A DNA stretch of 64,000 bases from Haloplanus sp. CK5-1 (GTDB lineage: Archaea > Halobacteriota > Halobacteria > Halobacteriales > Haloferacaceae). The notes beneath the pieces are model-generated. The model was not told where the DNA came from. It did no database searches and was given only the letters and a program-made list of their open reading frames with translations. Numbering within the stretch: position 1 is the first letter of the stretch; each line of letters opens with the position of its first letter. Location of the stretch: positions 186,001 through 250,000 of the forward strand of contig NZ_CP147505.1 in NCBI RefSeq assembly GCF_037201915.1, written 5' to 3'. The translations under genes and the position numbers were made by a program. Shown piece after piece: positions 13,878 through 17,370 of the stretch.

Positions 13878-15596
13878 TTACGCCAACGCGTCCAGCCGGA
13901 ACTCGAAGGCCGCGACCGGCAGTTCGAGGTCGTGTTCGACCAGAACCCGCGGGTGGACCTCGCCGATCACGCCGACCGACTCGCCGTCGATCACCACGTC
14001 GGCCGCACGGCCGTCGATGAACGTCGGGTGGTCGGTCGCCGGTGTCTCGAGGTCGACGCCGAAGCCCCGACACAGCGCCGCCAGACGGGACTTGGCGTCC
14101 TCGTAGGTCGCGTCGTGGCGGGCCAGCACGGCCGCGACGGTGCGGCGCTCCGCGACGCCCGTGTTCTCGTCGGCGTCGGCGCCCGCGGCGAGACCGATCT
14201 CCGCGAGGTCCTGTGGGTACGCCCGGTGGGTGTTGTTCTCCAACACCATCAGCAGGGAGGGGAGCGCCCACGTCCGGAGCATCGTGTAGTCCTCGCTGTA
14301 CGGTTCGGTGATGGTCACCGGCGGGTCGCCGCCGTAGGCGTCGCCGCCGGCTTCGACCCCCATCCGATCGTAGTTCTCGACTTCGGAGATCATGTGGAAG
14401 TTGAGCAGGTCCTCGAAGCCGAGGCCGACGAGCCGTGTCCGCGCGGCCGACTCCAGTTTCGACCGGTCGTGTCGACTCCCGACGGTCGCCACGTCCGGAT
14501 ACCGTGGGTCGAGTTCGTTGAAGCCGTAGGCCCGACCCACGTCGTCGATCAGGTCGAGTGGGTGGAGGACGTCCGTGCGGTACGGCGGGATCGACACCTC
14601 GTAGGTGCCCTCTGCCTCCTCGGGGGCCGCGTCCAGTCCCGACCGCTCGAAGAGGTCGACCGCCTCCTCGACGTCGAGGTCGATCCCGAGCATCGACTCG
14701 ATGCGGTCGTGGGCGACAGTCTTCGTCTCCACCTCGAAGTCGGGGCGGACCAGGCGGCCGTCCGGATACTCGACTGCCACCTCCTCTATCGTCGCACCCC
14801 GGGCGTCGAGCGCGTAACAGATCACGTTGCACATCCGGTCGATGGTCCACTGGTCGGTCCCCGTGAGTTCGACAAAGAGGTTCCGCGAGTCCGTCGACAC
14901 CTCCGTCCGGCGGCCGTTGATGACCGGCGGGAACGAGAACAGGCCGATCTCGTCGTAGATGGCGGGATAGCGGTCGTACCCCTCGACGATCGGCGCGTAC
15001 GTCTCGCCAGTGGGGTGATCGGTGAGCACCTCCGCGGGCGTCATCTCCCGGTCGGCGTCGAGGGGGACGAACCGGTCACCGTCGGGGTCGAGCCCGCGGT
15101 AGGTGATGGCGTTGCCGGCCGGTCCCTCGTCGTTGGGATCGTAGCCCGCCCCTTTCAGCATCGTCAGGTCGTGGATGCCGATGGCCCCCTTCGCGCGCTT
15201 GCGTCCCATCGTGGCGTGGAGTTTCTCCTGCAACTGGATCAGGGAGTCGAGCGCGGCGTCGTCCAGGTCGACGCCACGGATCACCGCGCCGGTGACACGG
15301 GGTCGCTCCTCGGGCACCGACTCGTCGACGACGATGGTCCAGTCGGCGTCGTTCGTGTTCGGGACGTAGACGCCGCGGTCGTCGCCGTACTGGTAGCGCA
15401 ACGAGCGGGCGACGCCCTCGACGGAGAGGCGATCCAGCCGGTCCGGGCCGAACTCCAGTTGCAACAGCCCGTCCTCGGTCTCGCCCTCGAACTCCAGACC
15501 GAGGGCGAACAGGTCCTCCTTCAACTCCTCGTCGCTCTTCTCGTCGTGCCCCGTCAACTCCCGGAGTGCGTCGGGATCGACGTCGACGACGGGCAT
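13878..15596 (-). CDS. pheT: phenylalanyl-tRNA synthetase beta subunit
   Basis: The 572-residue subunit is the archaeal type, beginning MPVVDVDPDALRELTG. It includes the B3/B4-like editing region and the later B5 and catalytic-like domains. It supports the alpha subunit in an alpha2-beta2 enzyme charging tRNA-Phe. Its ATG overlaps the pheS stop (ATGA at 15593-15596 region), so the two subunits are translationally coupled in fixed ratio. About 80 bases separate its end from valS. Confidence 0.96.
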   Translation of the reverse strand: MPVVDVDPDALRELTGHDEKSDEELKEDLFALGLEFEGETEDGLLQLEFGPDRLDRLSVEGVARSLRYQYGDDRGVYVPNTNDADWTIVVDESVPEERPRVTGAVIRGVDLDDAALDSLIQLQEKLHATMGRKRAKGAIGIHDLTMLKGAGYDPNDEGPAGNAITYRGLDPDGDRFVPLDADREMTPAEVLTDHPTGETYAPIVEGYDRYPAIYDEIGLFSFPPVINGRRTEVSTDSRNLFVELTGTDQWTIDRMCNVICYALDARGATIEEVAVEYPDGRLVRPDFEVETKTVAHDRIESMLGIDLDVEEAVDLFERSGLDAAPEEAEGTYEVSIPPYRTDVLHPLDLIDDVGRAYGFNELDPRYPDVATVGSRHDRSKLESAARTRLVGLGFEDLLNFHMISEVENYDRMGVEAGGDAYGGDPPVTITEPYSEDYTMLRTWALPSLLMVLENNTHRAYPQDLAEIGLAAGADADENTGVAERRTVAAVLARHDATYEDAKSRLAALCRGFGVDLETPATDHPTFIDGRAADVVIDGESVGVIGEVHPRVLVEHDLELPVAAFEFRLDALA

Positions 15597-17137
15597 CAGT
15601 GCAACACCTCCGTGGTCCGCAGGAGGTCCAGATCACAGAGCGTCCCGTGCACGTCGCGGATGTCGTCGAAGCCGTACATGAGCATCAGGAGTCGTTCGAG
15701 CGCCAGTCCCCACGCCATCACGTCGCACTCGACACCGAGCGGTCGCAACACCTCCTCGCGGAACATCCCGCTGTTGCCGATTTCGATGAGTTCCCCGGTT
15801 TCGGGGTGGGTGCCGAACAGTTCGAACGAGGGTTCGGTGTAGGGGTTGTAGTGGGGTTTGAACTCCAGATCGGTGATGCCGAACTGCCGGTAGAACTCCT
15901 CGAAGGTACCCATCAGGTCCCGGACCGAGAGGTTCTCCGCCATCACCCAGCCCTCGATCTGGAAGAACTCCAAGAGGTGCGTCGGATCGAGCGTGTCGTT
16001 GCGGTACACCTTCTCGACGCTGAAGAAGCGCTCGGGAGGTTCGAGGTCGCCGATTTCGGTGCCCGACAGGTAGCGCATCGACAGGGAGGTGGTGTGGCCC
16101 CGGAGGTCGACCGCGCGGGCCACCTCCTCGGTCCACGGCGAGTGGTACCCCTGCCCGTCCTCGCCGACGCCCTCGAGGTGGGCCGAACGGACCCGGTCCA
16201 GTAGGTCTTCGGGAATCGACTCCATCGGGGGCACGTCCAGCGCGAACTGGTCCCAGTGGGTCCGCGCCGGGTGGTCTTGGGGCATGAACAGACAGTCGTT
16301 GATCCAGAACTCCGAGTCGGCGTGGGGACCCTCCATCTCGCGAAAGCCCATGCCGACGAGCGTCTCCTTGACGCGTTCGGCGGTCTGACGGAGGATGTGG
16401 ACCGAGCCACCCCGCTCCTCGGGGGCGTCGGCCTCGACGTTGTACGCCGAGAACTCGGCGTCGCGCCACTCGCCGGAGGTGAGCATCTCGGGCGTGAGGC
16501 GGTCGACCGTCTCCGCCGTCTCGACACCCTCCATCAGCGCGGTCACACCCGCGTCGGTGAGCGTGACCGAGCGGACGGCCCGCTCCCGGCGGTCGACGAG
16601 GCCGCGCCGGACGAGTCCGTCGAGGGCGTCGGATTCCTCGACGGCCTGCGGCCGGCTTCCCGAGGAGTGTGGCTCCTCGCCGTCGCCGGAAGAAAGCGAC
16701 GCGAGCGCCGCCGCCTCCGGATCGGCGTCCGGGTCGGCGTCCGGGTCGGCGGTGATCTCACCCGAATCGACGTCGCCGTAGCTCTTGCGGGCGTAGTTCG
16801 CCAGCGCGATGTCGACTTCGGGACCGTCGAGGTCGGCCGCGCCGATGACCTGCCCCATCGGGACGGGGGTATCGTCGGCGCCGGCGGCGAGCGCGGCGCG
16901 GTAGAGGCGAACCTCGGGTAGTCCCGCCTCGGCGTAGGTCGCTCCCTCCTCGGTCACCTCGTGGGAGACCGATTCGGACGCCGAGACGGTCACCAACCCC
17001 TCGTCTTCGAGGTCGAACGCCGCGCCGGTCACCGTCGCCGGGTCGAGGTCCGTCGACTCGCTCAACTGTGCTATCGTCCGTTCGTCCGTCGCGCTCGCGG
17101 CTTCCAACACCGCGATCTGTGAGTCCGGAAGTCGCAT
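15596..17137 (-). CDS. pheS: phenylalanyl-tRNA synthetase alpha subunit
   Basis: The 513-residue catalytic subunit of PheRS has an N-terminal winged-helix region (about residues 1-90) and a class II catalytic core. Recognisable core stretches are GFREMEGPHADSEFW, MPQDHPARTHWDQF, RNDTLDPTHLLEFFQIEG and the C-terminal motif 3 region GLALERLLMLMYG. An acidic repeat of Asp-Ala-Asp-Pro occurs near residue 130. The mRNA leader is unusually long for a haloarchaeon and contains a Phe-rich mini-ORF with hairpins (17221-17336), which could control synthesis of this enzyme. Confidence 0.96.
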   Translation of the reverse strand: MRLPDSQIAVLEAASATDERTIAQLSESTDLDPATVTGAAFDLEDEGLVTVSASESVSHEVTEEGATYAEAGLPEVRLYRAALAAGADDTPVPMGQVIGAADLDGPEVDIALANYARKSYGDVDSGEITADPDADPDADPEAAALASLSSGDGEEPHSSGSRPQAVEESDALDGLVRRGLVDRRERAVRSVTLTDAGVTALMEGVETAETVDRLTPEMLTSGEWRDAEFSAYNVEADAPEERGGSVHILRQTAERVKETLVGMGFREMEGPHADSEFWINDCLFMPQDHPARTHWDQFALDVPPMESIPEDLLDRVRSAHLEGVGEDGQGYHSPWTEEVARAVDLRGHTTSLSMRYLSGTEIGDLEPPERFFSVEKVYRNDTLDPTHLLEFFQIEGWVMAENLSVRDLMGTFEEFYRQFGITDLEFKPHYNPYTEPSFELFGTHPETGELIEIGNSGMFREEVLRPLGVECDVMAWGLALERLLMLMYGFDDIRDVHGTLCDLDLLRTTEVLH

Positions 17138-17222
17138 TCTTGTTCGTATTCACCGAAGCCGGTCAGTTAGCAGTTCCGAAGGGGTCGCGTGGCCGGTCGA
17201 GCGGCCGAGCGAGCCGGTTTCG

Positions 17223-17248
17223 TCCGCCCGCCGCGGGCGGAGTCCGCC
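17223..17248 (-). promoter_or_regulatory. mutually exclusive hairpins before pheS
   Basis: Directly after the mini-ORF stop, GGCGG (17248-17244) can pair with CCGCC (17240-17236), or TCCGCCC (17241-17235) can pair with GGGCGGA (17229-17223). The middle segment is shared, so only one stem can form. The second stem (7 pairs, loop of 5) is stronger. No U-run follows it, so if it acts, it may act on translation or on a pausing polymerase. Confidence 0.45.
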
Positions 17249-17252
17249 GGCC

Positions 17253-17336
17253 TCAGACGGCGAGGAAAAAGAACCCGAACCCCGGCTCGGTCGCTTCGCG
17301 GGCGAGCGTGTCGGTCGTGGCGGGGTCGGTCGCCAT
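17253..17336 (-). CDS. 27-codon Phe-rich leader-type ORF upstream of pheST
   Basis: The ORF starts at ATG 17336 and ends at TGA 17255-17253. Phe codons occupy positions 20, 22, 23 and 24 of 27 (peptide end PGFGFFFLAV). A CGTTTTTG box (17361-17368) lies 25-30 bases before the ATG, the same form and spacing as upstream of lipA in this window, so the ORF would be translated from a leaderless transcript. It lies in the intergenic gap after trpS and before the gene for Phe-tRNA synthetase. This resembles the bacterial pheST leader peptide, which is inference. It could instead be an unrelated tiny protein, or the T-rich run could be a trpS terminator. Confidence 0.45.
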   Translation of the reverse strand: MATDPATTDTLAREATEPGFGFFFLAV

Positions 17337-17360
17337 ACCCGTTCGATTCGGGCCGCGAGA

Positions 17361-17370
17361 CAAAAACGTT
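17361..17370 (-). promoter_or_regulatory. TATA box of the pheS leader ORF
   Basis: AACGTTTTTG on the minus strand is centred 27 bases before ATG 17336, matching the haloarchaeal TTTWWW-type TATA position for leaderless transcripts. The same core precedes lipA at 27220-27228. Confidence 0.5.

Follow-up and report, generated by a model that had tools for sequence, protein, structure and literature searches.

The phenylalanyl-tRNA synthetase operon of Haloplanus sp. CK5-1 is preceded by a short ORF with four Phe codons close to its stop, and the same kind of ORF, with one covarying RNA helix inside it and a second element beginning at its stop codon, is found ahead of pheS across the Halobacteria. 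This is very probably a conserved archaeal leader of pheST through which the ribosome senses Phe. That the leader is functional we regard as practically certain, and we are confident that it senses Phe; the explanation as a whole, a Phe-tRNA-sensing leader of an archaeal pheST operon, we hold to be likely. For the ORF ahead of the operon we suggest the name pheL.

The window, the whole stretch of 64,000 nucleotides that was analysed, carries trpS (18995-17379), the leader region, pheS (17137-15596) and pheT (15596-13878) in that order on its minus strand, according to the ORF list. The identity of pheS is given by its sequence and by the annotation, in H. volcanii, of the gene that follows a matching uORF (PMC4983044). 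A sequence-only reading had placed between trpS and pheS a 27-codon ORF with Phe at codons 20, 22, 23 and 24, and direct inspection confirmed both coordinates and codons. The pheS gene begins 115 nt 3' of the leader ORF. The features referred to below, in window coordinates, are the following:

17361 to 17370, minus strand: P1, a BRE/TATA-like promoter box, AACGTTTTTG, which begins 34 nt ahead of the leader ATG.
17253 to 17336, minus strand: leader ORF of 27 codons, with ATG at 17336 and TGA ending at 17253, encoding the peptide MATDPATTDTLAREATEPGFGFFFLAV followed by the stop.
17321 to 17330, minus strand: RNA strand I, ACCGACCCCG, codons 3-6, pairing with strand II.
17274 to 17283, minus strand: RNA strand II, GGGGTTCGGG, which includes the first Phe control codon and pairs with strand I.
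17265 to 17279, minus strand: Phe control codons F20, F22, F23 and F24 (TTC GGG TTC TTT TTC), the only U-rich tract from the leader ATG to pheS.
17209 to 17255, minus strand: RNA element III:IV, made up of the stop codon, an outer helix, a YGGA/GAAA internal loop and an inner hairpin; it matches covariance model R1 with 52.5 bits.
17164 to 17177, minus strand: conserved promoter-like box P2, GGAACTGCTAACTG, about 27-40 nt ahead of pheS. Across most loci the corresponding box (CGGAACNGCTAACTG) is located 27-75 nt ahead of the gene, and GGAACNGCTAACTG-like forms of it about 30-50 nt.
15596 to 17137, minus strand: pheS, phenylalanyl-tRNA synthetase alpha subunit and proposed regulated gene, with ATG at 17137.
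13878 to 15596, minus strand: ORF overlapping the pheS stop, which we take to be pheT (beta subunit) from the known pheST gene order.

The window's twelve closest relatives make up one genus, whose named members include Haloplanus, and the leader is present in all 12 of these genomes, in one of them (L012) as a shortened form with a GTG start and 2 Phe codons. Among 80 named haloarchaeal pheS loci, picked by pheS similarity alone and including two (L041, L056) on the same contigs as the genus members L011 and L012, an ORF of the type MxSEP...GFGFFFA-stop lies ahead of pheS in 65, at a distance of about 85-330 nt, and about a fifth of the named loci are without the leader system. The conservation of ORF and Phe codons in relatives, which had been proposed as a check on the initial reading, is therefore found both within the genus and well beyond it. 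In a set of 117 distinct pheS upstream regions, selected partly via the GFGFFF pattern, the leader is in frame in 102. The pattern GGNTTYGGNTTYTTYTTY has matches in 121 of 292 class genomes, as against only about a dozen for the same pattern read backwards, and 26 of the 30 pattern loci that were fetched lie at pheS.

Both termini of the leader peptide (MxSEP and GFGFFFA) are conserved and its middle is not. The leaders average 3.8 Phe codons, situated in the 3' part of the ORF, and in the alignment Phe codons 2-4 change mostly between C and T at the third base (TTC/TTT), with variable flanking codons. The rare codon TTT accounts for 25% of leader Phe codons compared with 5.9% in pheS of the same loci, an enrichment of about four times, and is seen mostly at the second and third control codons. 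The conserved frame, taken with the third-base variation at the Phe codons, indicates that the leader is a translated sequence. One metagenome copy (L052, about 190 nt upstream of pheS) has the P1 box, helix I:II and the post-stop element intact and its Phe codons one base out of frame; this could be a leader in decay or a mistake of the assembly.

Of 102 haloarchaeal leaders, 78 have a P1-like box that begins exactly at -34; no control segment has one in this register. Differential RNA-seq of H. volcanii lists a TSS upstream of a 26-aa pheS uORF in the 5'UTR (Babski et al., 2016, Table 2; PMC4983044), and that table marks no pheS-proximal TSS. The H. volcanii uORFs (26 and 23 aa) match the orthologs analysed here by length, the comparison being of lengths and not of sequences. 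The earlier suggestion that a TATA box places the ORF at the start of a leaderless transcript gains from both the -34 register and the listed upstream TSS. Because a long-5'UTR TSS is listed there without a proximal one, leader and pheS are probably on one mRNA in H. volcanii. The P2-like box, of which there is one copy per genome where it is found, is kept in 91 of 102 loci with a leader and in 13 of 15 without; it could be a proximal promoter of pheS, yet Table 2 of PMC4983044 marks no start site there in H. volcanii.

Conservation at the two ends of the ORF is partly a matter of RNA. The first Phe/Gly codons (GGGTTCGG) and the N-terminal SEP codons (YCCGAAYCCC) are reverse complements of each other, and across 78 sequences of this helix, I:II, 89.2% of cells are paired, with double changes in 7 of 10 pairs. 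It can be seen that the 56 double-change cells exceed both the 21.7 ± 3.4 of shuffled alignments and the 17 at most obtained when the strands are slid. The window copy has one internal C.U mismatch. Pairing is kept in lineages with divergent peptides, Halorubrum (CTCGAACGCG:CGCGTTCGAG) and L009 (CCGAACTC:GAGTTCGG, also given as CCGAACTCG:CGAGTTCGG), where both sides have changed, as they have in L102 (CCGAACACG:CGTGTTCGG) and L051 (GCGAACCCCG:CGGGGTTCGC). In a Halobellus locus (L053) the paired GAA/TTC has become GGA/TCC, so that the Phe codon is lost and the pairing retained. Since the GGGTTCGG segment both codes and pairs, conservation of its codons is in part conservation of the RNA. Two Haloglomus loci (L084, L089) have peptides without SEP/GFG (MSVGRRRRRAAPRPPAASDPFFLA), and an equivalent I:II helix (GTCGGACG:CGTCCGAC) is apparently kept there beside the Phe codons.

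The second structure, element III:IV, begins at the stop codon and has the form GCGGYGGA-hairpin-GAAACCGC, with a variable inner hairpin. In 77 sequences 87.3% of the cells of helix III:IV are paired, 11 of 12 pairs show double changes, and 179 double-change cells are counted against 61.1 ± 5.7 in shuffles; the YGGA/GAAA internal loop is nearly invariant and the helices that flank it covary. Under strict filters the covariance model finds exactly one element per genome in 167 of 391 class genomes, and in a phylum sample of 295 genomes all 18 element matches fall inside this order. The element is absent from 14 of 15 loci without a leader, the exception being the out-of-frame L052. No Rfam family reached its gathering score in 8 leader loci.

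The stems described earlier fared differently. Directly after the leader stop the sequence-only reading had seen two stems with a strand in common (GGCGG:CCGCC versus CCGCCCG:CGGGCGG); these are specific to the genus and are not conserved outside it, where the one nested element covaries instead. The expectation that stem pairings would covary in relatives is thus borne out class-wide by III:IV and by the ORF-internal I:II, which the stems of that reading did not include, and fails for the stems themselves. Two other foldings were rejected. The YGGA/GAAA loop, judged by eye, is without the three-base bulge geometry of a kink-turn, and an alternative helix II:IV, in which strand II would pair with the 3' arm (GAAACC), is perfect only with CGAACCC (e.g. 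L014), most genomes having CGAAACC. In Halogranum rubrum (L057) 71 nt separate the leader stop from the element, the extra ~60 nt having an inverted-repeat character and being absent from the congener L045.

The GYGGA motif lies 19.0 ± 2.0 nt downstream of the last Phe codon and 6.5 ± 2.2 nt downstream of the stop. We folded 98 leaders with an assumed ribosome mask of 28 nt, scoring for each helix the mean probability of at least one pair. Without a ribosome the values for I:II and outer III:IV are 0.78 and 0.67. An A-site at the first Phe codon leaves I:II at 0.00 and outer III:IV at 0.59, and a ribosome at the stop gives the reverse, with I:II at 0.66 and outer III:IV at 0.01. The computed fold therefore differs between a ribosome stalled at the Phe codons and one that has reached the stop, and the model predicts mutually exclusive states that depend on ribosome position. 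Against so clean a switch, pairing of the outer helix is already impaired when the A-site is at the last Phe codon (I:II 0.01, outer III:IV 0.28).

From leader ATG to pheS no hairpin with a U-run that could serve as a terminator was found, and at least 5 U in 7 nt occur only at the Phe codons in 86 of 88 loci; the absence of a U-run after the stem, conceded as a weak point by the sequence-only reading, holds class-wide over these 88 loci. Nor is any feature conserved in the stretch from the element to the P2-like box. FttA/aCPSF1, the nuclease of archaeal transcription termination, prefers U-rich RNA (PMC11616081), and an association of RNA polymerase with the ribosome is described in H. volcanii (PMC8576121).

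We propose that the leaderless mRNA would begin at the leader ATG and that a ribosome would translate the leader behind RNA polymerase. Were Phe-tRNA scarce, it would stall on the GFGFFF codons, keeping helix I:II open, covering the U-rich Phe-codon tract and leaving the post-stop element free to fold; were Phe-tRNA plentiful, it would reach the stop, with I:II closing behind it and the 5' arm of the element covered. The stalled state should increase pheST expression, and a rise on starvation is what we would expect with good likelihood. The likeliest level of control would be transcription termination by FttA/aCPSF1 in the untranslated spacer, where a stalled ribosome would hide the U-rich tract, III:IV would fold and transcription into pheST would be allowed. 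This proposal of a hidden tract is drawn from the lack of a U-run hairpin, the U-rich Phe codons and the association of polymerase and ribosome (PMC8576121); against it, Phe codons are UUY, which trivially explains the U-rich tract. Control at the level of transcription we consider an even chance, and attenuation in the strict sense, that is, terminated transcription, is plausible. Extended to the whole class, with the control codons as a U-rich loading site for FttA that the stalled ribosome masks and with a parallel Trp system at auxiliary trpS, the idea is tentative and on present evidence doubtful. If true, it would be an attenuation mechanism without a terminator hairpin, in another domain of life than the classical one.

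How else might these features be explained? The ORF could have arisen by chance within a T-rich terminator of trpS, given that the Phe codons are the region's only T-rich stretch, and the sequence-only reading had itself raised both chance Phe codons and such a terminator. However, 50 of the 62 named leader loci have no trpS within 800 nt upstream, from which it follows that the leader goes with pheS and that the T-rich run does not serve to terminate trpS, and frame, Phe content and RNA pairing are all conserved. ORF and element are kept in the close relatives, where their loss had been named as grounds for rejection, and we discard the chance explanation as having next to no probability. That the ORF codes for a small protein with a function of its own, located before pheS by coincidence, is also very improbable. 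The conserved MxSEP and GFGFFFA motifs might suggest one, but both motifs are encoded by the pairing strands of helix I:II, which covaries, and residues there are exchanged in ways that preserve the base pairs (G to D/A/S/E, S to L), the middle of the peptide is not conserved, and the linkage to pheS is class-wide. An unlikely alternative takes the post-stop element to be a site for protein binding or a sensor of the riboswitch kind (PheRS autoregulation would be an example), which the ORF only remodels or accompanies incidentally. A near-invariant YGGA/GAAA loop amid covarying helices is what a ligand or protein site would have; this alternative does not account for Phe codons that are kept, mostly with synonymous changes, next to the cognate gene, nor for the joint loss of ORF and element, and the Rfam search gave no match.

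The serious rival is translational control, in which the leader would always be part of the pheS mRNA and the position of the ribosome on the Phe codons would refold the RNA, raising pheS translation at low Phe-tRNA. The long-5'UTR TSS of H. volcanii pheS, with no proximal TSS marked in Table 2 of PMC4983044, and the lack of a terminator in the spacer are both consistent with this. The spacer from element to pheS, however, ranges from about 10 to 150 nt and has no conserved structure able to mask the pheS start, and we give translational control a real but minor probability.

Leaders with Trp codons before auxiliary trpS genes form an independent second case that supports the reading of the Phe leader. 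Table 2 of PMC4983044 lists a 23-aa uORF with an upstream TSS before HVO_A0127 (tryptophan--tRNA ligase). Orthologs of this gene on plasmids and chromosomes have 23-aa leaders such as MVSTSHANCWRWHAFREVDSIAV (then stop), and other genera have leaders beginning MQSAPDCRCWRWWPHVSGADSLVV and MNAAPWRWWSPASGADSP. These are leaderless ORFs of ~23-31 aa with a CWRWH/WRWW core (L209:1000-1176, L213, L214, L191, L192, L194, L197, L201). A conserved helix of roughly 10 bp (TCCACTTCCC:GGGAAGTGGA) has their Trp codons in its loop, and in L213 it shows a compensatory change. Between leader and auxiliary trpS there is a pyrimidine-rich stretch, GCTCACTCGCTTTCTC, which is conserved as well; element III:IV is not present at these leaders. 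When 30 Trp/Tyr synthetase loci were scanned under the same rule, the hits were the auxiliary-trpS leaders of that set, all five of them, together with two Phe leaders and a single stray ORF. No leaders of a similar kind were found ahead of trpC or of genes of the anthranilate-synthase type, and in 6 genomes none were found at the synthetase families for Ile/Leu/Val and Thr/Pro/Ser.

For the uORFs, PMC4983044 gives length, mass and pI, and the section concerned says nothing on amino-acid bias, structure, conservation or attenuation. The Phe and Trp leaders would give a meaning to two uORFs already in published Haloferax transcript maps. A search of the open-access literature, subscription papers being outside its scope, found no report of leader-peptide attenuation in archaea. 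To our knowledge, a ribosome-operated leader switch has not been shown in archaea. With a class-wide leader in Halobacteria, its presence in the genetically tractable Haloferax and a second case for Trp, transcription-translation coupling as an archaeal regulatory device becomes directly testable.

In bacteria, ribosome stalling on a leader peptide is a textbook means of gene control, and ribosome-mediated attenuators are found at enterobacterial pheST, with the leader pheM, and at pheA, with the leader pheL. There too a short Phe-rich leader ORF lies just upstream of the cognate gene and folding is set by where the ribosome stops. As in an attenuator, the haloarchaeal ORF is short, has several cognate codons near its end, and is upstream of and conserved with the cognate pheS. 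It differs from the enterobacterial leaders in that the host is an archaeon, the start is leaderless, the control codons sit within a helix at the extreme 3' end, the sequence of the post-stop element is conserved, and an intrinsic terminator with a U-run is lacking. The initial description as an attenuator-like Phe leader accordingly stands as regards the leader ORF, the Phe control codons and the cognate synthetase, to which two covarying helices are added, and falls as regards competing stems; "exactly as in bacterial pheST attenuation" went too far, there being neither a U-run terminator hairpin nor conserved competing stems. Since a terminator hairpin with a U-run was sought and not found, we do not assign the haloarchaeal leader to the bacterial attenuator type. 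T-box riboswitches of bacterial aminoacyl-tRNA synthetase genes are likewise RNA leaders of synthetase genes that sense tRNA charging, and they bind the tRNA directly, without translation; no Rfam match to a T-box (specifier loop, antiterminator bulge) was obtained in 8 leader loci. An auxiliary TrpRS gene of Streptomyces is reportedly controlled by ribosome-mediated attenuation, with a Trp-codon leader before a second TrpRS gene just as at the haloarchaeal auxiliary trpS; the Streptomyces system uses a bacterial terminator and antiterminator, whereas the haloarchaeal one has its Trp codons in a helix loop followed by a pyrimidine-rich stretch downstream.
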